Positions 34,244 to 50,831 of a stretch of 64,000 nucleotides of DNA are shown here, in pieces (positions within the stretch are counted from its first letter, which is position 1; each line of letters starts with the position of its first letter). The translations under genes were made by a program, and so were the position numbers. The notes beneath the pieces were generated by a model that did not search any database, was not told the origin of the DNA, and saw nothing but the letters and a program-made list of their open reading frames with translations. The stretch spans positions 1,364,001 to 1,428,000 of the forward strand of contig CAJXMJ010000001.1 of NCBI GenBank assembly GCA_913056455.1, read 5' to 3'. Origin of the DNA: an uncultured Fodinibius sp. GTDB lineage: Bacteria; Bacteroidota; Rhodothermia; Balneolales; Balneolaceae.

Positions 34244-36880
34244 TCATTTTCTATTCATGGAACTGCCAGCCCCCCGCACATCTTCCTGCTCAAACGAAAA
34301 GAGGAAAGTTGTACCGTCATTACACTCAATATTGAGTGTAGCTCCAAGCTGATCGACAAGGGAGTTGACCAGCGTAAAACCAAGTGAACTTTGCTCATCA
34401 ATCGAAAAGTCTTTTCCTATCCCTTTACCATTATCTTTAATAATAAAAGTGACGGTTGAATCTTTCCTCTGCCCATTAATTACTATTCTCCCATCCTGAC
34501 GACCGGGAAAGGCGTGCTTATAAGCATTTGTAACCAACTCATTAATGATGAGTCCACAAGGAACGGCCTGATTGATATTCAAATCTATCGCATCGATATC
34601 AATATCAAAACTAATATTATTATCTTCTGCTCTATGATACACATCTTTTACCGATGAGATAATTTGTTCTACAAAACTATCAAAGGAAAGATCGTTAAAG
34701 TTATCGGCTTCATATAACATCTCGTGTATAGTAGCCATTGATTGAATCCGCATCTGGCTATTTTTCAACACATTTTCGGTATGATTATTTTTAGCCGAAA
34801 AGGCCTCTAACTGCAAGAGTCCCGAAATAATCGCGAGGTTATTTTTTACCCTGTGATGAATTTCAGCAAGCAAAACCTCCTTTTCTTTTAGGGATTGGTC
34901 CAGCTCATCCTGATACTCCTTTAGCTCCGAAATATCCTGTCCGGTTCCAATCATATAGGTCTTTTGCTCACCCTCAAATCGCGAAGCATTATACAAGTAC
35001 GGTACTAACTCCCCACTTTCTGTCAAGAATTCGGCCTGTATCGACGCTTTCCCCTCTTCAAAAACTTTTGTTACAGCTTGGGAAACACGTTCTTTATGCT
35101 TTTCAGGGAAGTATTCAAGCGGATCCATATACGATATTTCTAAATCGTTGAATCCCGTTGCCTTTCGAAAATAGTCGTTCCAGCGAATTGCATTCCCATG
35201 CTGGTCGAACATAAAAAACGAAACAGGAAGACTATTAATTATTTTATCACTGAGGGCTTTCTCTTTTTCCAACTTTTCTTTCGCCTTTACCTGGTCGGTA
35301 ATATCCTGCACTGCCCCAATAACATGTGATATAGATCCGTTATCATCATAAGCTATCTTTCCCGAGTGACGAACCCACCGGACCTCTCCTCCAGATATAA
35401 GCAACCGATGTTCAAAATCCTGAAATGGTTCACCTGATTTAATACGAGCGGTAATATCATCTATAATTGAAATATCCTCGGGATGTACCCTCTCTTTAAA
35501 AAGTTCTACTGTAGGCTTCTGAGCCACATCATCAATATCATAGATATCATATACTTTTGGAGACCACTGCAGAGAATTATTCTTGAGGTCCCACCGCCAG
35601 CTACCCAGGTCAGCAAGTTCCTGACCTACCCGCATATTGGTTAACGTTTGTCTCAACGTATCCTGTGTCTCGCGCAATTCCGAAATATCAACTCCAATAG
35701 AGGCAATATAGTTACGACCACTTGTCACAAATTGGAAGCTTGTTAGGGCAAAAGGTACTGGTCCATGCTTTTTTGTTTTTAAATTTCCTTCGGCTTCTCC
35801 CTTTCCTGTTTTTAATACCTGATTAAACGCTATCTCAAGTAGTTCCGCATCATCAGCAGTAAAATGACTAACCAATGGAGAACCGTCAATTTCTGAATCG
35901 GTTTTACCTACTAATTGTTTGAAATTTTTATTCCATCGCTCCAAAATTCCATCTTTATTCGTCAGACAAAACACTCCCGGCAAATTGTTGATAATCTTAT
36001 CTGAAAATAGCTTCTCAGACTCTAATTCCTTCAGTGCTTTTTCACGACGGGTAACGTCTCTTCCGGTCATATACCATCGGTTCTGATGGAATGTGAAGCT
36101 CAAATTTAATTTCGCTGCTTCTTCCTGCTCGGTTAAGAAACGTACAATAAATGACCTTTCGGTATTCTCTTGATTTTTTAAAAACGTTCTAACTTCATTT
36201 CTCAGCTCTTCATCGATGATACGCTCACCAAAGCTAATACCTTCCAGTTCAGACTTTGAGCAATTTAGCAATGATAAGGCTTCATTATTGACTTTAATAT
36301 ATTTTAGGCTGTCAGGATCAATAATTGCCTGAATATCGGAAGAATTCTGTAAAAGAATATCCGGCTTTTTTAGCTGGGCATTCTTTTTAATTAGCTCAAA
36401 CCGAGAGACCACCTCTTTGCTAATCATTTTAAGACTCTCTTTCTGCTGTGATGTGAGAGACCGCTCTTTACGATCAATAACACAGATTGCACCAATGTTA
36501 TGTCCGTCGGTGGTTTTTAGCGGTACCCCGGCATAAAATCGAATGTGTGGATCTTCCTGAACAAAAGGGCTTTCGGCAAATCGTTCGTCCTCGACCGCAT
36601 TTTCGACGATCATAATATCATTATCATGATCCTGAATCGTATGATGACAAAAACTTTCTTCTCTCGTGATATTGGTTATATCCCACCCTACGCTTGCTTT
36701 TGTAAACTGCGAATTCTCTCCCAATATGTTAATTAGTGAAATAGGCGTTTCACATATACTGGAGGCAAGAGCAACCAAATTACTTAATTCCTCTTCAATA
36801 TTTTTATAGGTCAGATTATATTCTGCTAATTTCTCAAGGCGTTCTTTTTCTCCCGCTCTGAGGGTATTGGATTGAGACAT
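34244..36880 (-). CDS. Cytoplasmic GAF/multi-PAS sensor histidine kinase (HisKA_2 type)
   Basis: This 878-residue kinase has no membrane segment. An N-terminal GAF domain (about residues 20-160; FYAGVPLKTTDGHNIGAICVID) is followed by several PAS domains (about 165-280, 290-405, 415-530 and 540-655; PGVFCLTNKDGILERWN, DLGSWRWDLKN and VSFFMFDQHGNAIRWN). The dimerisation/phosphorylation domain carries EIHHRVKNNLAIISGLLQLE, the HisKA_2 phospho-acceptor box, and a short HATPase domain ends the protein (IINELVTNAYKHAF, IKDNGKGIG and SLGFTLV). No response regulator is near it. It resembles the two other HisKA_2 kinases at 42891-44660 and 47033-48163 in its kinase core. Confidence 0.9.
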   Translation of the reverse strand: MSQSNTLRAGEKERLEKLAEYNLTYKNIEEELSNLVALASSICETPISLINILGENSQFTKASVGWDITNITREESFCHHTIQDHDNDIMIVENAVEDERFAESPFVQEDPHIRFYAGVPLKTTDGHNIGAICVIDRKERSLTSQQKESLKMISKEVVSRFELIKKNAQLKKPDILLQNSSDIQAIIDPDSLKYIKVNNEALSLLNCSKSELEGISFGERIIDEELRNEVRTFLKNQENTERSFIVRFLTEQEEAAKLNLSFTFHQNRWYMTGRDVTRREKALKELESEKLFSDKIINNLPGVFCLTNKDGILERWNKNFKQLVGKTDSEIDGSPLVSHFTADDAELLEIAFNQVLKTGKGEAEGNLKTKKHGPVPFALTSFQFVTSGRNYIASIGVDISELRETQDTLRQTLTNMRVGQELADLGSWRWDLKNNSLQWSPKVYDIYDIDDVAQKPTVELFKERVHPEDISIIDDITARIKSGEPFQDFEHRLLISGGEVRWVRHSGKIAYDDNGSISHVIGAVQDITDQVKAKEKLEKEKALSDKIINSLPVSFFMFDQHGNAIRWNDYFRKATGFNDLEISYMDPLEYFPEKHKERVSQAVTKVFEEGKASIQAEFLTESGELVPYLYNASRFEGEQKTYMIGTGQDISELKEYQDELDQSLKEKEVLLAEIHHRVKNNLAIISGLLQLEAFSAKNNHTENVLKNSQMRIQSMATIHEMLYEADNFNDLSFDSFVEQIISSVKDVYHRAEDNNISFDIDIDAIDLNINQAVPCGLIINELVTNAYKHAFPGRQDGRIVINGQRKDSTVTFIIKDNGKGIGKDFSIDEQSSLGFTLVNSLVDQLGATLNIECNDGTTFLFSFEQEDVRGAGSSMNRK

Positions 36881-37206: not shown

Positions 37207-38397
37207 TTATTTATTTTTCTCATAGCCCGTCATCTCAATAAAACCATTCCCACCAATGCTCTCCCCATCCATCTCCCCTGAAACAGATAATGTGCCTTCA
37301 TAATATCGGACAGATACATTCATTTCCTGATCGGGGAAAAGTGTTTGCAGATCCAATGATAGATCGACCTTTGGTATTTCCAATTTCCATGACGAAGGAT
37401 AAACGGAATTACTATAGGGACTCTCCCAACGCTCCAGCACCTCAATTTGTACATCATTTTGATTTATTATTGTTTTCTGTCCCTCCGGACTGATGAGTGA
37501 GCCGGTCGTAAATTTACTAACAGATCCGTTGTTATTCCGCAGCTGATAATACATCAGGTCATACCCATTCGACAATTGTAAAGAGAACCAATCCCAGCCT
37601 TCTTGTCCATCACCCAACGCCGAGGTACTCCACTCATGGTCCATCCAGCTCGAACCCGATATCTCAAACCGGTTTCCATTTATTGTAATCGAACCTTTGG
37701 TTTCCATTCTTGTAAAAGACAAATAGTACGATGCGTTGCCCTCACTTTCTCCCTTGCGATCATACCCCTGCTCTCCTTGCAAGACCAGTGGTTTTGCGGG
37801 AACAACACTCAAATCTATAGAAGGCCCACCTTCCATCGTTGCACTTATCTGTACCGGAAAACTTTTGTCGGAACTATTGTCAGTATCTGTTCGCTTAATT
37901 TCCCAATCTTCAACCCAAATGCGATACGGTTCGGTCTGCGCACCGGCCAACCCCGCTGCCCCGCGGCTGTAACGTTCTTCAAAAACATGATTTTTTGCCT
38001 GAACATCCGAAATTGCAAAATGTCCCAGATATAACTGGTTCGTATTCCAACCTTTACCGAAGGCCAAACTATCTGCATCTCCCTGTGGTGGATTCAACTG
38101 ATTTCTAAAAATGGTAAACTGATAACCGAACTGGCGTCCGTCTTCAGTAAAAAGATTCCCGGTATAGTACCACCATTCGGTTTTAAATCCCGGGTGAGGT
38201 CCGTGATCATCCGGAAAAACAAATTCACGGGGTCCATTGGCCCGTAGATACCCTTCCTGATCAGCACCTCCCATAGCATCAGCCACAGATACCGAGGCCT
38301 CAATTTTTTCAGTGTCATCATCGAAAGTATACCATAGACCAATGCCTAATAACACTATCACACACAAACCAAATATATATCGCATACCCCTTTTCAT
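37207..38397 (-). CDS. AttH/CrtC-like lipocalin-domain protein associated with an ABC transporter
   Basis: This is a 396-residue protein with one N-terminal membrane or signal segment (YIFGLCVIVLLGIGLWYTF). The body has the AttH / carotenoid 1,2-hydratase-like signature HPGFKTEWWYYTGNL (about residues 68-82), GYQFTIFRNQL and SSWMDHEWSTSALGDGQEGWDWFSLQL. Although CrtC homologues hydrate carotenoids, this variant is encoded directly behind a FtsX-like permease and LolD-like ATPase (12 bp gap). This is a recurrent three-gene arrangement better explained by export or trafficking of a lipid-like compound across the envelope. No carotenoid genes are in the window. Confidence 0.82.
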   Translation of the reverse strand: MKRGMRYIFGLCVIVLLGIGLWYTFDDDTEKIEASVSVADAMGGADQEGYLRANGPREFVFPDDHGPHPGFKTEWWYYTGNLFTEDGRQFGYQFTIFRNQLNPPQGDADSLAFGKGWNTNQLYLGHFAISDVQAKNHVFEERYSRGAAGLAGAQTEPYRIWVEDWEIKRTDTDNSSDKSFPVQISATMEGGPSIDLSVVPAKPLVLQGEQGYDRKGESEGNASYYLSFTRMETKGSITINGNRFEISGSSWMDHEWSTSALGDGQEGWDWFSLQLSNGYDLMYYQLRNNNGSVSKFTTGSLISPEGQKTIINQNDVQIEVLERWESPYSNSVYPSSWKLEIPKVDLSLDLQTLFPDQEMNVSVRYYEGTLSVSGEMDGESIGGNGFIEMTGYEKNK

Positions 38398-38409
38398 AAT
38401 TCGTAATCT

Positions 38410-40962
38410 TTAATCATTTCTCAAGGCATCGGCCGGATTAGCCTGTGCCATTTTACGTGATGGATACAAGCCAGCGAGCAGAGCTGCCACAATTGCCAAC
38501 CCTACCGCCTGTAGCAAAACCTGTGGGTCAATCATAAACTGTAGCGTCCACCCGAATGACCGTAGATTTATCACATATACCAAAATGTACGCCATAAGTA
38601 TGCCCAGCGGTACAGACAAAATACCCGCCATTATCCCCATTATTCCGGTTTGACTTATCACATAATTCCAGAGCTGTCCGGGTGTCATCCCGTTCGCTCG
38701 CAGTACTGCCAACTCGCGTGAACGCTCCAATTGCAGAGCCATAAGTGCACTCAAAATACCAATAAATGCTACAATAATAGCCAGCATGCGCAGTACTATC
38801 GTCACCGTAAAGGTACGGTCGAAAATGGCTATAGAAGCTTCGCGTAGTCCTTTATTGGACCGGATAAACACTTCCTGCTGTCCCTGGGCTCTATTCCGAA
38901 GTCTTTCGACAAGCCGATCAACGCTCATACCATCCATTGCGTAAAGGGCAAGCCCCGAAATAGCCCGGTCATCAAAATATTGCTTATAGATATCCCGATG
39001 CATTGTGATCGTTCCAATATCTGAAGCATAGTCAAAATTTATTGCTTCTATGGTAAAAGCCTGCCGACCACGATCTGTGGTTATAAACAGTGAATCGCCC
39101 AATGAAACATTGTGGCGGTAGGCATAGGCTTCGGAAACCATTACAATATCTTCGACCATATACCGCTGCCAAAAGTTTTCTAAACTTTCTTTAAGCTGAT
39201 ATGTTTCTTGCGCTTCCACTCCCTGTTCAATAGCTACCAGCTGATCTGTTCCATAATTAGTTTGTACATCAACACTTCGGACGGTATGCCATCGTGAAAC
39301 GCCTTCGGTTTCTTTCAGCAGTTCAACAAGCTTGGGCTCCAATTTGGCATCCGCTTTCCTGGATACAGCACTCGGCGGTTGTACATACACATCAGCCTGC
39401 AACTGCGCTTCAAGCCATGAAACGACCGTGCCCCTAAAGCTGTCAACCATCACCCCTACCCCCACTGTCGCAGCCACAGCAACGACTAATGCCGCTATGG
39501 CTACCGATGTTCGACTCAACTCCGTTACAACACCGCGTACCGACATCTTTCCGATAATGCCGTTTAGTTTACCCATCAAGGGACGAAAAACTGTGGCCAT
39601 CCCTACGATAAGTAGTGGGATCATCATAGAAAATCCAACAATCATAAACAGTAGGGAGATATATCCCGCAGCAATGCCGCCATTTGGAATCAAAAGCAAA
39701 GTCCCTCCAACCAACCCAATGATGAGTCCATAACCAGCCAATGGAAGCAGGCGTCTTGTGATTTTAGATTCATTAGAAGAGCGTCGGAGTACCGTCGAAA
39801 CCTCTGCCTTAGAAGCTTCACGGGCAGGCCAAAAGGCAGCAATAATTGTAGCTCCTATACCCAGCACAGCTGCTTTTGCCAGAGGAAATAATCCGATTGA
39901 CAATTCCTGAACCGAAAGCACAAAATACAGATCGTTTATCGACTGGGTGACTAACTTCACCAATCCCTGGGCCATAAATATACCGGCAATAATTCCCAAC
40001 AACGTTCCCAAAAAACCGATCAGCAGCGCTTCCTTCAGAATAATTGTCAAAATCTCGTTCTTCGTCGTACCCAACGCTCGTAACCTTCCAATAAGCTGGC
40101 GGCGCTGTACCACTGAAAAAGTCATGGTGTTATAGATTAGAAACATCCCTACCAAGAGGGCAAGCATACTCAGTGCTTGTAAGTTAAACTCAAAAGCACG
40201 ACTCATTTGAGCAACGGTTTCCGACCTGGAGTCAGAACGCGTTATCAAAGTCCCTTGCGGCAAGAGACCTTTAATCCGAGAAAGTAACGCCTCTTCACGT
40301 CGATCAGGAAGGATAAGATCAATGCGTGAGAGCTGTCCTTGCATATTGAACATGCGCTGGGCGGTACTGATATCGACCAGCAGTATATTTTCGAGGGCGC
40401 GTCGACTCCGGTCATTACCCGCCTTAATAACTCCACTCAACAGTATATTCTGGGCTCGTCCACCTACCGATACTATCATCGTATCGCCCAAAGATAACTG
40501 AAGCTGTTCAGCCACCGGTTGAGCAATCAAACCGGTATTTTTTCCGGTGATAAAATCACCCAGTTCAATACCCGACTGTTGGCTGGCAAAATCACGAAAC
40601 GGGGCTTCTGCAAGTGGGTCTACGCCCAAAATCTGAAACGTTTTGTTCATGCCAGAGATGCGCCCATACCCTTTCACGACCGGGGCAGATTTCCGAATCT
40701 TGCCTTCTATCCGGAGTTTTATATATACATCTTCATCCAAATTTTCCGCAGCACCCTTGATCTGGTGGGTAGCCTTCCCTGTTACTGCTTCAGTAGAGAG
40801 AGCAAAAGCCTTTTTGGCTGAATTGTTAGACAAATCGATAGAAACCACCACCGAAACACCCAACGCCACACCTAAGATTGATAATGCAAAATGCCAGGGA
40901 TGCCGCAGTAAAAAACGAATACTTGAAAGCCAGAGTAAATTTTTTGATTTCTTGTCTCTCAT
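38410..40962 (-). CDS. ABC transporter permease, FtsX-like, duplicated (MacB/LolC-type)
   Basis: This 850-residue permease contains two FtsX modules. Helix 1 is [21 protein letters not shown], followed by a periplasmic domain (about residues 45-260). A three-helix block follows at about 265-400 ([31 protein letters not shown]), then two more helices near 410-460. The pattern then repeats with a second periplasmic domain (about 520-720) and a final three-helix block ([24 protein letters not shown]). Its ATG overlaps the ATPase stop (ATGA), so the two are translationally coupled. The family moves lipids, lipoproteins or peptides out of the inner membrane. Confidence 0.9.
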
Positions 40963-41666
40963 TCTACAGCAGCGGCACTATGTTCAACGTTATGCAGTTT
41001 CCCTCCTTTTAGTTCCACTACGCGATCAGCTATTTGACATATATCCTGATCATGGGTAGCAATGATCATCGTCCGGCCATTTTGACGTACCAAACTATTT
41101 AACATATCCAGGATGGTACGACCTGTTTCATAATCTAAATTCCCTGTTGGCTCATCGGCTAAAATCAGCATGGGCTCATGCGCCAGCGCTCTTGCAATAG
41201 CTACACGCTGCTGTTCTCCACCCGAAAGACGATCCGGGTAACTATCTCCCCGATCTCCCAGCTCTACTTCATCTAAATACCGCTGAGCTTTTTCGATAAT
41301 ATCCCCATCGGTCTCCCCTTTCAGCTTTAGCGGCAAAAGAACGTTTTCAAGGGCCGTTAATGTGGGTATAAGATTGAAGGACTGGAACACAAATCCGATA
41401 TGTTTTCGCCTGAAAAGCGTACGATCTTTCTCATTCATATCGGACAAATCAGTCCCACCGATACTCACTTCTCCAGAATCCGGCTTATCAATTCCACTGA
41501 CTAAATTCAACAGCGTACTCTTTCCCGAACCGGACCGGCCCAGCAAAACAATCATCTCTCCTTCCTCAACGGAAAGGTTTAGTTCATCCAGCACCGAGCG
41601 GCTTTTATCACCCTCTTTGTAACTTTTGGTCAAATCTTTTAGCTGTATATGTGCGTCTTGAGCCAT
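40959..41666 (-). CDS. ABC transporter ATP-binding protein, LolD/MacB-like
   Basis: The protein has 235 residues from the ATG at 41666 ([16 protein letters not shown]); an in-frame ATG at 41705 would add 13 polar residues. Walker A is GRSGSGKST, the Q-loop is [18 protein letters not shown], the signature is [15 protein letters not shown], and Walker B is [12 protein letters not shown]. This is the standard ATPase of FtsX-type mechanotransmission systems. It is the first gene of the operon with the permease and AttH-like protein, so its substrate class should follow theirs (a lipid-like molecule, by inference). Confidence 0.92.
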
Positions 41667-41887
41667 AAATTCATTTTCGTTTTTAGTAGTATGCCGACCA
41701 AACACAGCTTGAGTGTTATTGGTTCCGACAAAAAATGTTTTAGATCTTATAAAATTATAACTCGAGTGCGTACCTGCGGAAATGGCCTCTATTTAAATGC
41801 AGGCATTATTATTTATTTTTTAACATTATATTTACTATTGTTCATTATCTACTCTTTACTATTTTTTTACTGATCTGATTTTATTTT

Positions 41888-42874
41888 ATGAGGCGAATTC
41901 TTTTCTGGGTACTCCTGCTTAGTTTATTATCTGCCTGCCAACAGCCATTGAAGCAAATTCACGTTGGGACCACTCCATTTTTTGGCGAAGCCGCATTTTA
42001 TGTTGCCCAGACTGAAGGGTTTTTTGAAGAGCATGGGCTTGAGGTCACCTCTCATCCTCATTCAGCCGGCAAAGAATCATTAAAAAAACTCTATAGCGGA
42101 GAAATAGATATTGCCCACACGGCCGAACTTCCCCTTGTTTATGCCGTAAATGGATCGCCGGAATATAAAGGAGAGATGAGACCTAAGATATCTGCCAACA
42201 TGATTTATAATAGCGATATGCAGAAGATTATCGCTCGCAGAGACAAGGGTATCGAAATCCCCTCTGACCTGAAAAACAAAAAGATCGGTTATTTTAAAGG
42301 GACTACTTCTGAGTTTTTCTTAGATACCTTTCTCCTCGAACATAGTATCCCCGATACTGGTGTTGAAAAGCAAAATATTAATGTAGCAAAGCAGCTGGAT
42401 GCACTTAAATCGGGAAAAGTTGATGCCGTAGTTAGCTGGGAGCCTCATGCTTCCAAAATACTTTCAGAAATGGATGAGCACACTCATGAACTCGATACTA
42501 AAATTGATCACTCAACACTTTGGCTGGTCGTAACCTCTGACACTTATATATCAGACCATCCTGAGAACATAAGGGCTTACCTGCAGGCTTTGAGAAAAGC
42601 ACAGATCTGGATAAAAGAGCATCCGGGGCAAACACAAACCCTGTTGGCCAATAAAACGAATGCCTCTAAAAAAATCATGGCTCACCTTTGGAATACTATT
42701 GATTATGAACTTTCGATAAGTGAACGGATGCTACTATTATTGGAGGACCAGCAACGTTGGCTTAAAGAGAAAGGATATGCTAAATCCAGTAACACGACAA
42801 CTAATTTTGAAAACTTAATATACTTTAGAGCTATAGAAGAAGTATATCCCGAAGGAATAACCATTATAAGGTAA
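41888..42874 (+). CDS. NMT1/SsuA-like solute-binding lipoprotein, paralogue 1
   Basis: This is a 328-residue lipoprotein with lipobox LLSAC (Cys17). The fold is a periplasmic binding protein of the NMT1/THI5/SsuA group: VGTTPFFGEAAFYVAQTEGF, KKLYSGEIDIAHTAELPLVYA, KKIGYFKGTTSEFFLDTFLLE, AVVSWEPHASKIL and STLWLVVTSDTYI. It ends EEVYPEGITIIR, as its two paralogues nearly do. No ABC permease or ATPase for import is nearby. Instead it converges, 16 bp apart, with a histidine kinase gene. I infer that it presents a ligand to a sensor rather than to a transporter. The ligand may be an aromatic, sulfonate or pyrimidine-like compound, judging only from the family. Confidence 0.85.
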   Translation: MRRILFWVLLLSLLSACQQPLKQIHVGTTPFFGEAAFYVAQTEGFFEEHGLEVTSHPHSAGKESLKKLYSGEIDIAHTAELPLVYAVNGSPEYKGEMRPKISANMIYNSDMQKIIARRDKGIEIPSDLKNKKIGYFKGTTSEFFLDTFLLEHSIPDTGVEKQNINVAKQLDALKSGKVDAVVSWEPHASKILSEMDEHTHELDTKIDHSTLWLVVTSDTYISDHPENIRAYLQALRKAQIWIKEHPGQTQTLLANKTNASKKIMAHLWNTIDYELSISERMLLLLEDQQRWLKEKGYAKSSNTTTNFENLIYFRAIEEVYPEGITIIR

Positions 42875-42890
42875 ACTGAATTACCGGGGA

Positions 42891-44660
42891 TCAATTAAGA
42901 TGGGCGCTTCCTATCCCTTTAATGTTGGCCATTTCAAACCGTATATCAAACCTGCTGCCATTTTTCCATTCATACTGTATAGTAGCATCAAGTTGTTGGC
43001 AAAGCGTTTGAATAATGCGCATTCCCAGTGTTGACGCATTATGAATATCAAAATCTTTTGGGAATCCAACGCCATTATCAAAGATGGTGAGGGTCAGGTT
43101 CTGTTCATTCGCTTTCATGATAATATTGATCATTCCCTTTTTCTGCTCTTTAAATGCATGCTTAAAAGCATTGGTAACCAGTTCATTAACTATTAATGCA
43201 GCCGGGATAGCCTGATTTACATTGAGTGTTACATCCTCAAGCTGATAATTAATTTCGACCTCTGTACCCGTATTTAACGTTTCCCTTATGGTAGTTACCA
43301 ACTTTTTAATCTGATCCGAAAAGTTAAGATCCGTAAAGCTTTCTGTGTCGTATAACAATTCATGGATTGAAGCCATTGACTGTATGCGAAGTTGGCTGTC
43401 ATAAAGTTTGTCGGTTAAGCCTTCATTCTCACTTTCCATAGCCTGTAGCTGCATCATCCCTGAAATGACTGCCAAGTTGTTTTTTACCCGATGATGGATT
43501 TCCTGCAAGAGTATTGACTTTTCTTCCAATGACTCCTGTAGATCCTCTTCATAGCTGATATATTCCGTAACATCGACACCTATCGTTTGTGAAGCAGGTT
43601 TGCCCTGATAGGTAATCGGAACCCCTTGCAGCTGCAGGTACCGATGTTCTCCATCCAGTCGTTGAACTCTGTAGACCGTGGGATCTATCCCTTCTCGATT
43701 TTCTTCCAACCTCTTAATTTGCTCAATAGCCCGACTTTTCTGGGTTTCTCCTAAGTAATCAAATACTTGTGTGCCAATGACATGTTCTGCTGACTTGGCA
43801 CCCAAAATATAGACGCCGGCTTCATTAATAAATTTTATTTTCCCCTCAACGTGGATTACAATCATATTTGGCGCCTGATCAACAAGCGCTTCCCACCGAC
43901 TGAGATTTTCTTCAGCCTGTTTCCTCAGGCTTTGCTCCTCCTTAATGTGTCTACGTAATTCACTGGTCATCTCATTATAGGCGTTCGCCAACGTATCAAA
44001 CTCCTCAAAACTGTTAAGATCGATATGTGTATCAAGGTTACCTTCTGCAATAGACTTGGTACCTTCCAAAAGCTCGTTAAGCGAGTCAAGCGTATGCTTA
44101 CGCATCCTATATATTATATAAACAAGAAACCCAATACCCGGTATTAAGATAAGTAAGACCTGAATACGCTGATAAACCTGTAGATCACGGACTTCTTGTA
44201 GTCGACTTTGCTCAAGACGGTGGGCCACCGACAATAACAATTGAATATCTGATCGTATACGCGCCGTAGCTCGCTCTAATAGCCGTTTACGCTTTTGAGA
44301 ATCCGTGTACGTCTCTGGTTTATTGTAAATTTCATTAATCAGTGTAAAAGATTGCTTAATCGACGGCAGAGCATTTGTAACGACTCTGCGAGTGGGAAAC
44401 TTCCTTATATTTTCCTTGGTTGTTTCAAGATCTCGGTAAAGCGTGTTCCATTTCTCGAAATATCGCGATTCTTCATAGGCCAGATATTGCTCGGTTATGA
44501 TATTAAGCTCTGTAGCTGTTTTGGCAAACCGATTAACACGATCTACTTGATTCAGTTCATCATTTATCTGCCACGTGGTATAGAACAAGAAGCCGAAGAG
44601 TACTACTACGGTAGCAACGGAAAGAAGCGCAACTGCATTTATGCGGGATTTAAACGTCAT
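42891..44660 (-). CDS. Membrane sensor histidine kinase (HAMP-PAS-HisKA_2)
   Basis: The 589-residue kinase has two membrane helices (about residues 9-30 and 170-188; LLILIPGIGFLVYIIY) around an all-helical periplasmic domain of about 135 residues. A HAMP linker follows (LNELLEGTKSIAEGNLDTHI), then a PAS domain (about 255-375; VIHVEGKIKFINEAGVYILG), the HisKA_2 box EIHHRVKNNLAVISGMMQLQ and an HATPase domain (LIVNELVTNAFKHAF and IFDNGVGFP). The ATG overlaps the stop of the upstream binding-protein gene (ATGA), so kinase and lipoprotein are made together. The helical sensor domain could contact the lipoprotein in the periplasm. No response regulator is adjacent. Confidence 0.9.
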   Translation of the reverse strand: MTFKSRINAVALLSVATVVVLFGFLFYTTWQINDELNQVDRVNRFAKTATELNIITEQYLAYEESRYFEKWNTLYRDLETTKENIRKFPTRRVVTNALPSIKQSFTLINEIYNKPETYTDSQKRKRLLERATARIRSDIQLLLSVAHRLEQSRLQEVRDLQVYQRIQVLLILIPGIGFLVYIIYRMRKHTLDSLNELLEGTKSIAEGNLDTHIDLNSFEEFDTLANAYNEMTSELRRHIKEEQSLRKQAEENLSRWEALVDQAPNMIVIHVEGKIKFINEAGVYILGAKSAEHVIGTQVFDYLGETQKSRAIEQIKRLEENREGIDPTVYRVQRLDGEHRYLQLQGVPITYQGKPASQTIGVDVTEYISYEEDLQESLEEKSILLQEIHHRVKNNLAVISGMMQLQAMESENEGLTDKLYDSQLRIQSMASIHELLYDTESFTDLNFSDQIKKLVTTIRETLNTGTEVEINYQLEDVTLNVNQAIPAALIVNELVTNAFKHAFKEQKKGMINIIMKANEQNLTLTIFDNGVGFPKDFDIHNASTLGMRIIQTLCQQLDATIQYEWKNGSRFDIRFEMANIKGIGSAHLN

Positions 44661-45733
44661 CGTATTACGGTTATACCTTCAGGATATACTTCTTCAAGTG
44701 CTTCTAAATAAATAGCATCACTAATCTCAGAGAGTTTTGTACTGTCATCAACATGTTCTTCTTGCACAAGCCAGCGCTGTTGTTGATTAAGTAAGTAGAG
44801 CATCCGCTCCCCTATTGAAATTTCGTAGTCAATTGAGTCCCAAATGTTCCTAATAATTTCCAATGAAGTGTTCGTATTCTTTGCTATCAGTTTTTGGGTC
44901 TCCTCTCGATTACGTTGGATATAATCCTGCGACTTCTTAAGAGCTCTAAGATACTTGACGATAGTATCGGGGTGTTTTCGGATAAACGTCTCAGACGAAG
45001 TGGCCATCCACAACGTAGAATGACCAAGTACAGAATTAAGCTTTAAGGTATTTTCGTTCAGCTTCCTTAGGATTTCGGAGGCATAGGGTTCCCAACTGAC
45101 TACCGCATCAACTTGGCCGTTTTTTAACGCCTTGTAATGTTCTGTTATGTCGATATTTACCCTCTCAATATTCTCTTCCCGTAAGCCATGTTCTAACAAG
45201 AACGTATCAAAAAAGTACTCCGACGTTGTTTCAGAGTATAACCCAACTTTTTTTCCATTCAGGTCTTGAGGTTCATTAATGCCATGGTCACGACGAGCAA
45301 TAATCTTTTGACTATTACTGGTATAGATTAATCCCGTAAATATTTTGAGGCTGACATCGTTGTTGCTATGCGGCTCTAACCCAGACAGAGCGAACACCAC
45401 TGGAATTTCAGCCACATGTGCAATATCGACCTTTCCTTCGTATAAATCTTTCAGGGATTCCTTTCCCGCTGAATTGCTAAAGACAGTAACTTCTAATCCC
45501 TCCTCCTCGAAAAATCCTTCAGCCTGAGCCACATAAAAAGCAGCTTCTCCCCAGAAATCTGTAATACCAACTTTAATTGTTGTAAGATCTATAGACTTAT
45601 TCTCCTCATTACCACAACCGATAAACAAAGCTAACACTAATACGAGTGTTAACTTTATTGGAAAAACAGCATAGTTATACTTTGAGAAGAATACATCCAT
45701 AATATTTGGCTGTATATCCAAGATTGTTTTCAT
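44657..45733 (-). CDS. NMT1/SsuA-like solute-binding lipoprotein, paralogue 2 (coupled to kinase)
   Basis: The protein has 358 residues if started at 45733; an ATG at 45700 would give a more usual lipoprotein signal. The lipobox is LFIGC (Cys40 in the long form). Binding-protein motifs match paralogue 1: VGITDFWGEAAFYVAQAEGF, DLYEGKVDIAHVAEIPVVFA, KKVGLYSETTSEYFFDTFLLE and AVVSWEPYASEIL. The C-terminus is EEVYPEGITVIR. The stop codon overlaps the start of the HAMP-PAS kinase. Together with the absence of any permease, this makes a receptor/kinase pair the most natural reading. It lies 132 bp downstream of paralogue 3 on the same strand. Confidence 0.87.
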   Translation of the reverse strand: MKTILDIQPNIMDVFFSKYNYAVFPIKLTLVLVLALFIGCGNEENKSIDLTTIKVGITDFWGEAAFYVAQAEGFFEEEGLEVTVFSNSAGKESLKDLYEGKVDIAHVAEIPVVFALSGLEPHSNNDVSLKIFTGLIYTSNSQKIIARRDHGINEPQDLNGKKVGLYSETTSEYFFDTFLLEHGLREENIERVNIDITEHYKALKNGQVDAVVSWEPYASEILRKLNENTLKLNSVLGHSTLWMATSSETFIRKHPDTIVKYLRALKKSQDYIQRNREETQKLIAKNTNTSLEIIRNIWDSIDYEISIGERMLYLLNQQQRWLVQEEHVDDSTKLSEISDAIYLEALEEVYPEGITVIR

Positions 45734-45865
45734 ACATTATAGTCAAATTTGAGCAATAATCTTCGCATATGGATTAATTAGAATAAGCCACCATTTCCAT
45801 TTCCTGAAGAAATAACACCGTGCTGAGCAAACAAAACGTTACAGTAAATAGTCTTATAAGGCTTG

Positions 45866-46873
45866 TCATTGTATTACTGTTATGCCTTCGGGATATACAG
45901 TACGCATAGGCTCAAAATTAATAAGCGATCTGAAATCAAAGCCGGAGGTATCTGCTAAATTATTTCTGCCCATCCATCGCGACTGATCGTCGAGCAGTGT
46001 AATCATTCGTTCACTCAGCGAAAGCTCAAAGTCTAAATGTTTCCAGGTAGCTTGCACGGCCTCTATCGGTACCCCCGTTCTTTTAGCTAATAATTCTCGC
46101 GCTGATCGTGGATTTTCTTCTATATAGGTTTGTGCCTTACGGATCGCTTTTAAATAATTTATCAAAACTTCCGAATTCTGGTTCCCGTAGCTATCAAGTG
46201 TTACAGCCAACCATAATGTTGAGTAGGTAAGCTTGGTATCTAAAAAAACAGCCTTTGCCTCGAGCTTCTCTTTGATATAAGTAGCATATGGTTCCCAGGT
46301 CACCGCTACATCTATCTCTCCACTTGTTATTGCTGCAAGCTGCTCCACAGGCGTCATATCCAAAAGCGCAAGTGAACGCTTGGGCACTTGATATTCAAGG
46401 AGAAAGGAATCTAAAAAATAATCCAGCTGGGTATCTTGATAAACCCCCACTTTTTTACCAGCTATATCCTCCGGGCTTTCAATATCCGCCTCCTTTCGAC
46501 CTACGATATGCTGTATTTCGTCAGCATAGATCATATCCGCGAATATTTGAAACGGTGGAACCTGTTTTCCTTTATAATAGGAACTGTCAACAAGCGAATA
46601 GACCACCGGCGTCTCCGCTACATGGGCAATATCCACAGTTCCCTGGAATAATTCGCGGATCGATTTGCTTCCGGATGTATTCTCTTCAAACTGGACATTG
46701 AGTCCATAATCTTTAAAGTAACCCTGCTCTTGAGCTACAAAAGTGGCCCCCTCTCCTAAAAATGATTTGGTAATGCCAACCCGTACTTCGGTATGGGCGC
46801 GGGAAGTATCATCCTGGTTCTGGCATCCCCCGCCAATCAATAATAGTATTAATATGATAAGCAGATGGCGCAT
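45866..46873 (-). CDS. NMT1/SsuA-like solute-binding lipoprotein, paralogue 3
   Basis: This 335-residue lipoprotein has lipobox IGGGC (Cys17). It shares the paralogue pattern but is the most divergent: VGITKSFLGEGATFVAQEQGYF, ELFQGTVDIAHVAETPVVYS, KKVGVYQDTQLDYFLDSFLLE, VAVTWEPYATYI, STLWLAVTLDSYG and the C-terminal RTVYPEGITVIQ. The stretch before the tail (ELSLSERMITLLDDQSRWM) is conserved in all three. It lies between the PAS kinase gene upstream (159 bp) and paralogue 2 downstream, all on the minus strand. I consider it a further receptor of the same sensory cassette. Confidence 0.85.
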   Translation of the reverse strand: MRHLLIILILLLIGGGCQNQDDTSRAHTEVRVGITKSFLGEGATFVAQEQGYFKDYGLNVQFEENTSGSKSIRELFQGTVDIAHVAETPVVYSLVDSSYYKGKQVPPFQIFADMIYADEIQHIVGRKEADIESPEDIAGKKVGVYQDTQLDYFLDSFLLEYQVPKRSLALLDMTPVEQLAAITSGEIDVAVTWEPYATYIKEKLEAKAVFLDTKLTYSTLWLAVTLDSYGNQNSEVLINYLKAIRKAQTYIEENPRSARELLAKRTGVPIEAVQATWKHLDFELSLSERMITLLDDQSRWMGRNNLADTSGFDFRSLINFEPMRTVYPEGITVIQ

Positions 46874-47032
46874 ATCGATTACATTTAGATGCTTATTCTA
46901 CTTATATACTGCTACTATCACTACAACGGCAGCATTTTGTATTAAATACAACTACATATCTAAGATTAACCAATTTTCATCAATGTGTTTACACCATGTG
47001 TTTTACAAACAATTACATTCCCCGAAGAAATG

Positions 47033-48163
47033 CTAATCCTTTTGGAATCCTAACGTAAACGTTGTCCCTTGGTTCGTGGAGCTAAAGTCATATTTACCTC
47101 CCAATTGATTGCTGAGGGTCTCGATGAGGTTCATGCCAAGAGATCCTTTGCGATCTTCAAAGTCGTCTGGCAGCCCAACTCCATCATCGCTGATGCTTAA
47201 CCGGACCTTGCCGTTATCCTCTTTTACCCGAAGAGTTATATGCCCCTTTTCTCGTCCCTCAAAAGCGTGTTTAATAGCATTGGTAACAACCTCATTCGCA
47301 ATTAAAGAGCAAGGTAATGTTTGGGTAATATCCAAATAGACTGTATCGGATTCACTTTCTAGCCTAATTTGGGTATCAGTCTCCATTGTACTAATCAGGT
47401 CAGATGCTAAGGTGGCAATATTATCACCCAATGCTACATTTTCTAAGTTATCCGACTGATACAGCTGTTGATGGATACCGGCTACGGCTTTAATTCGATT
47501 GGTGCTTTCCCGCAACGACTTTATAACTTCGGGATCATCTTCCTGAAGCCATTGAAGCTGTAACATGCCTGCCACTACAGCTAAGTTGTTTTTAACGCGG
47601 TGGTGTGTCTCCTGCAAAAGGGTATTTTTATTATCCAATGACTCCGTGAGTTGTTTCTTCTCCAATTCCCTTTCGGTTACGTTTTGGTTGGTACCAATCG
47701 TAAGCTCAGGGGTTCCATCTTCATCATAAAAGTGAACAGCATGTGCTTCTACATATTTTGTGGTATCCTCATTTATTTGCAACCGGTATACTTGATGATA
47801 CAGCTCGTTACTTTTAAGTGATTTTTCATAGGCTTTTTCTATTTGGTCTCGATCTTCGGGGTGAACCAATTCCATAAAGAGCTCAAAGGAAGGAGTCACC
47901 GAATACGGCTCAAAACCAAATATGCGATACGTCTCCTCCGACCAAAAAAGTTCACCCTTTTGATGGTAATGCTCCCAGGAACCGAAATCAGATATTTTTT
48001 GGGCGGCCTCAATCCATCTGTGAAGCGTTTGGAAATACCCCATCGTCTTCCTTAGCTGCTTTAGTATTTCCTGTTGTTCCTTTACAGAGAGCCGCTTCTC
48101 TGTTTCCAGCTGTTGGATCAACTGGCTAAGATTTTGCTGAATTTGTGATTGGAGTGATTTCAT
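47033..48163 (-). CDS. Cytoplasmic PAS sensor histidine kinase (HisKA_2)
   Basis: This is a 376-residue kinase without membrane helices. An N-terminal coiled-coil-like segment (residues 1-45; QSQIQQNLSQLIQQLETEKR) leads to a PAS/PAC domain (about 55-165; FGSWEHYHQKGELFWSEETYRIFGF). The HisKA_2 box THHRVKNNLAVVAGMLQLQW follows (glutamate of the usual EIHH replaced by ET), then an HATPase domain (LIANEVVTNAIKHAF, ISDDGVGLPDDF and GSLGMNLIETL). It is the first gene of the minus-strand set that continues with two binding lipoproteins and the HAMP-PAS kinase. Without a membrane part it may act downstream of, or as a heterodimer with, the membrane kinase. This last point is inference. Confidence 0.88.
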   Translation of the reverse strand: MKSLQSQIQQNLSQLIQQLETEKRLSVKEQQEILKQLRKTMGYFQTLHRWIEAAQKISDFGSWEHYHQKGELFWSEETYRIFGFEPYSVTPSFELFMELVHPEDRDQIEKAYEKSLKSNELYHQVYRLQINEDTTKYVEAHAVHFYDEDGTPELTIGTNQNVTERELEKKQLTESLDNKNTLLQETHHRVKNNLAVVAGMLQLQWLQEDDPEVIKSLRESTNRIKAVAGIHQQLYQSDNLENVALGDNIATLASDLISTMETDTQIRLESESDTVYLDITQTLPCSLIANEVVTNAIKHAFEGREKGHITLRVKEDNGKVRLSISDDGVGLPDDFEDRKGSLGMNLIETLSNQLGGKYDFSSTNQGTTFTLGFQKD

Positions 48164-49902: not shown

Positions 49903-50345
49903 AATAGTCACTTAAGATTATTGAATTGATGGTGAAAACATCACCACCTACATATAACGAAACTGTCACCCAACAAACCGTTATATTTTTCTATAAAATA
50001 TTGTTTTTTAAATACTTATAGATAGAATCAGTCACTAAAAAAGCCCAACAATTGGGGTTGAATAAGCGGTAGCATTTTCTATGTCATATTGGAACTGGAA
50101 AAATTAAAAAACGGGCTGATCTACAAAAGTTTATGATGAACTATTGGAGTTTCGATAGGAAAACAAGTTAAGACTGGCAGAAAATATTGAGCAAGCAATC
50201 CGTATACGGAGATGACGAATAAAGATCAAATATTCTCAATTATTAACAGGAATTTAAGGTTACTTTAAGTAAATCATCTTTACATTACGCAATAGATACA
50301 TTCAAACTGTTTATTCAAATCATAATAAAATTCAAGGTGTCTACT
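49903..50345. other. 443-bp divergent intergenic region at the edge of the copper island
   Basis: The region contains the promoter and direct-repeat operator of the Met-rich protein gene on the right (50253-50289). On the left, the promoter of the divergent secreted-protein gene is presumed. A short inverted repeat CCCAA/TTGGG (50044-50056) bordered by six A residues would look like a weak terminator on the minus strand, but no transcript is known to reach it. No coding frame was found. Confidence 0.5.
50253..50289 (+). promoter_or_regulatory. Copper-regulon operator/promoter, copy 1: TTTAAG-N5-TTTAAG
   Basis: Half-sites TTTAAG lie at 50253-50258 and 50264-50269, exactly 11 bp apart. A TAnnTTTG-like -10 element starts at 50281 (TACATTAC), 28 bp after the first half-site begins, so the repeat covers the -35 position. 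The arrangement fits activation by an OmpR-family response regulator dimer. The same layout recurs at 56190 and 59391. Confidence 0.6.
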
Positions 50346-50831
50346 ATGAAACGTTTCATTCTTACATTCTCAATTGCTCTTTTAGTAGCCGGAACTTCTT
50401 TTGCCCAACAAAAGCAGGGCGATATGAATCAAAAGAAAAAACAGATGCGAGAGATGATGCAGGATTCCACCATGCGATCCATGATGATGGAACATATGGC
50501 CCAGAATCCCGAAATGCGCAAGCAGATGATGCAACACATGATGAAATCCAAAAATATGGATCACTCGGGGATGAAGAAAAACATGCAAAAAATGATGAAT
50601 GATCCGCAAATGAAGGAGCGCATGCAAAAGCATATGGAAATGATGCAATCCATGATGGAGAACGGGGAAATGAATCATTCCAAAATGATGGAAATGGCTG
50701 GCGACTCATCAATGATGAAAATGCATATGATGTGTATGCAGATGATGCAGGGTGACATGATGAAGGGAAATAGCAAGATGAATAAAAAAGACGGTATGAA
50801 AGGAAGTAAACATCAACAGCATCATAACTAA
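50346..50831 (+). CDS. Secreted Met/His-rich protein, probable copper binder
   Basis: This is a 161-residue protein from the ATG at 50346; the GTG at 50337 is also in frame but a signal peptide starts MKRFILTFSIALLVAG right at the ATG. After cleavage near SFAQQ the mature chain is about one quarter methionine, arranged in MxxM, MM and MxMM clusters (MREMMQD, MMMEHMAQNPEM, MMQHMM and MHMMCMQMM) with scattered histidines and one cysteine. Such Met-rich low-complexity proteins bind Cu(I) and Ag(I) in the periplasm. Long methionine runs may also make the sequence intrinsically disordered or helical. It has its own promoter with the copper operator and a terminator, so it is a monocistronic first line of defence. 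Confidence 0.8.
   Translation: MKRFILTFSIALLVAGTSFAQQKQGDMNQKKKQMREMMQDSTMRSMMMEHMAQNPEMRKQMMQHMMKSKNMDHSGMKKNMQKMMNDPQMKERMQKHMEMMQSMMENGEMNHSKMMEMAGDSSMMKMHMMCMQMMQGDMMKGNSKMNKKDGMKGSKHQQHHN

Follow-up and report, generated by a model that had tools for sequence, protein, structure and literature searches.

Three NMT1/SsuA-Type Lipoproteins and One Membrane Kinase: a Probable Binding-Protein-Dependent Sensor Locus in the Balneolales

Introduction

For most bacterial sensor kinases the signal has yet to be found, one reason being that some of them answer a loaded solute-binding protein (SBP) and not the free ligand. In 10 of the 11 characterised SBP-kinase couples the two genes are neighbours or lie very near each other, and there are two cases in P. 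aeruginosa in which an adjacent SBP and kinase do not interact (PMC11113362). CuaD binds the extracytosolic part of CuaS, and the arrangement has been named a three-component system (PMC10384115). Stand-alone SBPs are also encoded with a kinase in the arsenite system AioX-AioS-AioR and with ArxX and ArrX (PMC5908839), and the norspermidine system NspS-MbaA of Vibrio cholerae joins an SBP to a membrane receptor (PMC5646818).

SBP-dependent sensor kinases as such are already known; what is new here are the SBP clade, the lineage and the many-to-one arrangement, and in the open-access literature we found no description of this SBP-kinase family. The locus lies in a window of 64,000 nucleotides (the whole stretch of DNA that was analysed) from a salt-loving organism of the Balneolota group. 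The genome that holds it comprises 3.28 Mb in 7 contigs and is 95.9% complete; the genome-wide checks reported below are family searches.

Results

The SBP-kinase locus and its surroundings

An earlier note on this DNA had described three paralogous NMT1/SsuA-type lipoproteins interleaved with two HisKA_2 kinases, and all five genes were found as described:

41888..42874, plus strand: SBP1, NMT1/SsuA-like lipoprotein of subtype A (Pfam NMT1, 89 bits; lipobox ..LLSAC)
42891..44660, minus strand: membrane sensor kinase with TM1, periplasmic helical domain, TM2, HAMP, PAS, HisKA_2 and HATPase_c (Pfam; AF2)
44657..45733, minus strand: SBP2, NMT1/SsuA-like lipoprotein of subtype A (Pfam NMT1, 103 bits; its stop overlaps the kinase start, ATGA)
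45774..45869, minus strand: open frame of 31 codons, MTSLIRLFTVTFCLLSTVLFLQ.., its ATG overlapping the stop of SBP3 as ATGA
45866..46873, minus strand: SBP3, NMT1/SsuA-like lipoprotein of subtype B, without a kinase of its own (Pfam NMT1, 73 bits)
47033..48163, minus strand: soluble PAS_3-HisKA_2 kinase (Pfam)

On the minus strand the order of transcription is soluble kinase (48163-47033), SBP3 (46873-45866), SBP2 (45733-44657) and membrane kinase (44660-42891), and SBP1 (41888-42874, plus strand) converges on the membrane kinase. The lipoproteins are indeed paralogous, SBP2 and SBP3 being 52% and 41% identical to SBP1, and the ATGA overlap between lipoprotein (44657-45733) and membrane kinase (42891-44660) is real and 4 bp long. 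The true start of SBP2 may be an internal ATG (MDVFF..). Promoter and terminator consensus scans gave no more matches than in shuffled sequence and were not used.

The neighbouring ABC genes at 38410-41705 are, as had been claimed, of the export type (FtsX/MacB_PCD plus an ABC ATPase) and not an importer. The export-type cluster at 37207-41705, with its ABC ATPase, FtsX/MacB-like permease and CrtC/lipocalin-domain protein (PF07143, 203 bits), resembles LolCDE/AttEFGH-type sets. Both of the HisKA_2 kinases that had been counted are present, but a third lies at 34244-36880; it is of GAF-multi-PAS type, and a similar kinase stands upstream of the SBP locus in the relative G014 (L042 4775-7405). 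The frame at 50337-50831 encodes a small secreted-looking protein that is very rich in Met, Lys and His (MMQ/HMM repeats), has no Pfam match and is possibly metal-binding.

The binding proteins fall into two subtypes

Against a Pfam NMT1 cut-off of 20.5 bits, SBP1, SBP2 and SBP3 score 89, 103 and 73 bits, and all three match the SsuA family TIGR01728 with scores below its cut-off. Each has a lipobox cysteine, which is invariant in 17 aligned homologues. The best PDB matches of the AF2 model of SBP2 (mean pLDDT 84) are TauA and SsuA, with TM-scores of 0.67 and 0.63 by query length; both features that mark the NMT1/SsuA group, the curated family score and the type II periplasmic-binding-protein fold, are present, the fold being read from the SBP2 model. 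The only other NMT1-type match in the window genome, the fourth, is HisG.

Fixed residues, including T170/Q, T177/S and H238/Y (subtype A/B, SBP2 numbering), split the SBPs into two subtypes, with SBP1 and SBP2 in A and SBP3 in B. SBP1 groups with the SBP of G014, where the layout is likewise convergent, and SBP3 groups with G018_b and G013_b (support 98 and 97). Solved structural relatives of these proteins bind taurine, sulfonates, thiamin and pyrimidines, and the fixed differences between A and B suggest that the two subtypes may take different ligands.

The membrane kinase and its sensor

The membrane kinase has two transmembrane helices (judged from its sequence), a periplasmic helical domain at about residues 30-165, a HAMP domain and a kinase core; the HisKA_2 match scores 80 bits both here (42891-44660) and in the soluble kinase (47033-48163). 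In the AF2 model residues 3-205 form four long helices, with pLDDT mostly 75-92. A sequence search of the sensor domain against solved structures returned no match, and in structure searches with the membrane kinase the matches were filled by PAS and kinase core. By profile search, it is the only kinase in the window genome with a sensor of matching type.

Co-occurrence and conservation across the Balneolales

A profile of the three window SBPs and another of the first 245 residues of the membrane kinase were searched against the same 129 Balneolales genomes. An intact SBP of the clade occurs in 12 of them, and exactly those 12 hold the full-length sensor (13 copies, 327-399 bits); the best sensor score outside this set, 57 bits, covers the TM2-HAMP end only. 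The thirteenth genome with an SBP hit (G044) has no kinase, and its SBP is a decayed fragment interrupted by a stop. Were the genomes independent, so exact a co-occurrence would be expected with a probability near 4e-17; they are not, and the 12 span only four genera and two families. SBP and sensor distances correlate with r = 0.62 over 13 pairs (0 of 5000 permutations as high), and among the 11 HisKA_2 pairs r is 0.75 for SBP and sensor (partial 0.57, given the kinase core) vs. 0.63 for SBP and core (partial 0.28); this mirror-tree signal, like the co-occurrence, is inflated by shared ancestry.

Of the 13 loci, 12 keep the ATGA overlap of SBP stop and kinase start (the window's own and 11 in relatives); the exception is G014, in which the two genes are convergent neighbours. 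There are three SBPs to one kinase in the window, two to one in G013 and G018, two complete pairs in G015, and one to one in the other eight genomes. Comparison of neighbourhoods revealed no further conserved operon partner beside the SBP-kinase pair, and what lies downstream varies from genus to genus. Two genomes, G058 and G078, retain the SBP, periplasmic helices and HAMP but combine them with a HisKA-HATPase core where the others have PAS-HisKA_2-HATPase (by alignment, and by Pfam for G058), so that the constant unit is the SBP plus the sensor. The earlier note had proposed looking in related genomes for this SBP clade together with HisKA_2 kinases and without permeases, and that is what the relatives hold, save for the HisKA core of these two.

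The soluble kinase at 47033 is a different matter: of the 12 relative loci that have an intact pair, only that of G018 includes it (72% identity), and no orthologue was found near SBPs in other genomes. As the window genome has 22 HisKA_2 matches, adjacency to such a kinase says little by itself, and these two observations together make this kinase probably a loose, facultative neighbour. The idea that the lipoproteins report to shared kinases, in the plural, could therefore not be upheld, strict co-occurrence being confined to the membrane kinase at 42891-44660.

No response regulator was recognised beside the window locus. In G078 the SBP-kinase pair is followed (L049 1277-6193) by two single-domain response regulators as well as two hybrids of receiver-PAS-HisKA_2 type, which hint at a phosphorelay, and G058 has a single-domain response regulator near its pair. 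Close to the latter regulator is a protein with two B12-binding domains (L048 3724-4785).

Absence of an importer

Family searches found no SsuC/TauC/ThiX-type permease near the SBPs or elsewhere in the window genome, whose four BPD_transp_1 domains belong to PstA, PstC and, two of them, a single FbpB/PhnU2-like protein; the claim that the cluster contains no importer thus stands, and extends to the whole genome. Two findings had been named that would speak against a sensory system: homologues lying mainly beside ABC permease genes, and a dedicated permease elsewhere that co-varies with them. Neither was seen: in the 13 genomes with the clade (the G044 fragment included) no SBP has a permease beside it, and no co-varying permease that the window genome holds was found. 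Going by score and frame length, the Pst and FbpB/PhnU-like permease types are shared by the six members of the genus that have no SBPs. Within the genus, a permease pair of 296 and 271 aa is confined to SBP-bearing members (4 of 6); since the window genome and G014 bear SBPs but not this pair, it is not a required partner.

History of the SBP array

The stop of SBP3, too, overlaps an ATG, and the frame behind it ends after 31 codons. At the matching spot G018 reads MTIVWRSKS and then a stop, G013 reads MIITWR and then a stop, and the kinase itself starts MTIKSRL. Since these short frames are so close to the kinase start, the frame at 45774..45869 is probably a remnant of a kinase 5' end and the scar of a tandem duplication, one that looks to have ended just inside the kinase gene; alternatively, a second kinase that was later lost could have left much the same trace after SBP3. 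We infer an ancestral state of one SBP and one kinase, translated together, as most relatives still have it.

Other NMT1 proteins with and without transporters

Other NMT1 proteins of the Balneolales (L101-L104) have genes for a BPD_transp_1 permease and an ABC ATPase as neighbours; for the closest relatives in the Bacteroidota (L067, L068), sequence likewise indicates permease/ATPase operons. G005 and G035 encode single-chain NMT1-TM-kinases: NMT1-TM-PAS-HisKA_2 of 974 aa (L099 3806-6730) and NMT1-TM-HisKA of 617 aa (L100 3795-5648); G002 has an NMT1 frame of 978 aa that looks similar. In Vibrio and Pseudoalteromonas an NMT1 relative lies directly upstream of a membrane GGDEF diguanylate cyclase, overlapping it in two of the three loci (L064 4507-6818, L065 4480-6849, L066 4501-6821), and these pairs are likely an SBP-dependent c-di-GMP receptor family. 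With hhalign, the whole N-terminus of the kinase gave 95-97% against the NMT1-linked cyclases; without TM2 and HAMP, E was 0.14, about that of a reversed control (0.11), so homology of the periplasmic helices was not supported and, on present evidence, kinase and cyclases have only their arrangement in common.

Discussion

We take the locus to be an SBP-dependent ("three-component") sensor kinase, with a probability of about 0.85. The earlier proposal of a sensory system rather than an importer is supported by the strict co-occurrence of SBP and sensor, the conserved overlap of their genes and the absent importer. The tethered NMT1/SsuA-type lipoproteins would bind a small ligand from outside the cell or from the periplasm and close around it; by analogy with described systems, a loaded SBP would then dock onto the helical domain that the membrane kinase (42891-44660) has in the periplasm. 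The resulting change in helix packing, passed on by TM2 and HAMP, would set autophosphorylation of the HisKA_2 core, and the phosphate would pass to a response regulator encoded elsewhere. Two SBPs of subtype A and one of subtype B are arrayed around a single kinase, so that two ligand classes may be read by it. That all three SBPs signal through the one membrane kinase is suggested by the copy numbers only. Going further, a kinase fed by three SBPs of two ligand classes might integrate or compare ligands through competition for its docking site, with the array having arisen by tandem duplication in which the added SBPs ended up lacking kinases; we hold this extension tentatively, at somewhat less than even odds.

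That these are ordinary importer SBPs, with a permease and ATPase elsewhere and a kinase that merely regulates the transport operon, would fit the usual role of NMT1/SsuA proteins in feeding ABC importers as well as a fold and sequence closest to TauA and SsuA; it is nonetheless very improbable in a genome without an SsuC/TauC/ThiX-type permease, whose Pst and FbpB/PhnU-like types are shared with species that have no SBPs, and from which, as from G014, the one permease pair linked to SBPs in 4 of 6 genus members is missing. Only a little less improbable is a kinase that senses directly through its helical domain, the SBPs being scavengers or buffers that share its operon. Helical-bundle sensors can bind ligands directly, and some adjacent SBP-kinase pairs do not interact (PMC11113362), but the exact co-occurrence, the conserved translational overlap, the differing kinase cores behind a constant SBP-sensor unit and the recurrence of SBP-receptor pairs in other lineages speak against it.

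Within the sensory reading, a much closer question is whether SBP2 alone works with the kinase, which would make SBP1 and SBP3 redundant or decaying duplicates and leave no multi-receptor sensing. The single SBP per kinase of most relatives and the truncated kinase start behind SBP3 speak for this, and we consider it a serious possibility, if short of an even chance; the frames of SBP1 and SBP3 are, however, intact, with lipobox and conserved residues kept, and subtype B, with its own fixed residues, is found without a kinase of its own in three genomes (window, G013, G018).

As an SBP-dependent sensor kinase, the locus would belong to a branch of the NMT1/SsuA superfamily that is compact, seems to be exclusively sensory and comes from a phylum that has received little study. 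One-to-one pairs, many-to-one arrays, a single sensor type joined to different kinase cores, and fused forms from the same taxonomic order serve as natural controls, making it a clean test of signalling from SBP to kinase and of several SBPs competing for one kinase.

Among known systems, AioX-AioS-AioR, together with ArxX and ArrX, resembles the window locus in that a stand-alone SBP is encoded with a kinase and serves signalling, not transport (PMC5908839); AioX is PhnD-like, whereas the SBPs here are of the NMT1/SsuA type, and its operon includes a response regulator, whereas none was recognised at the window locus. In CuaD-CuaS-CuaR and XylFII-LytS, as here, a lipoprotein SBP gene adjoins that of a membrane kinase (PMC10384115), but their SBPs are of Family 1 (sugar) and they have an operon regulator and an adjacent target importer, none of which is seen at the window locus. 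The NMT1 family of the SBPs described here also differs from that of NspS, and the output of NspS-MbaA is c-di-GMP metabolism where the window has a HisKA_2 kinase. Like the gammaproteobacterial NMT1-GGDEF pairs, NspS-MbaA combines an SBP with a membrane receptor (PMC5646818). In the fused NMT1-TM-kinases, as in the window, NMT1 is the input of a HisKA_2 or HisKA kinase, and they come from the same taxonomic order; they differ in being one chain without a separate helical sensor, and their NMT1 domains are only distantly related to the window clade (27-45 bits to the clade profile).
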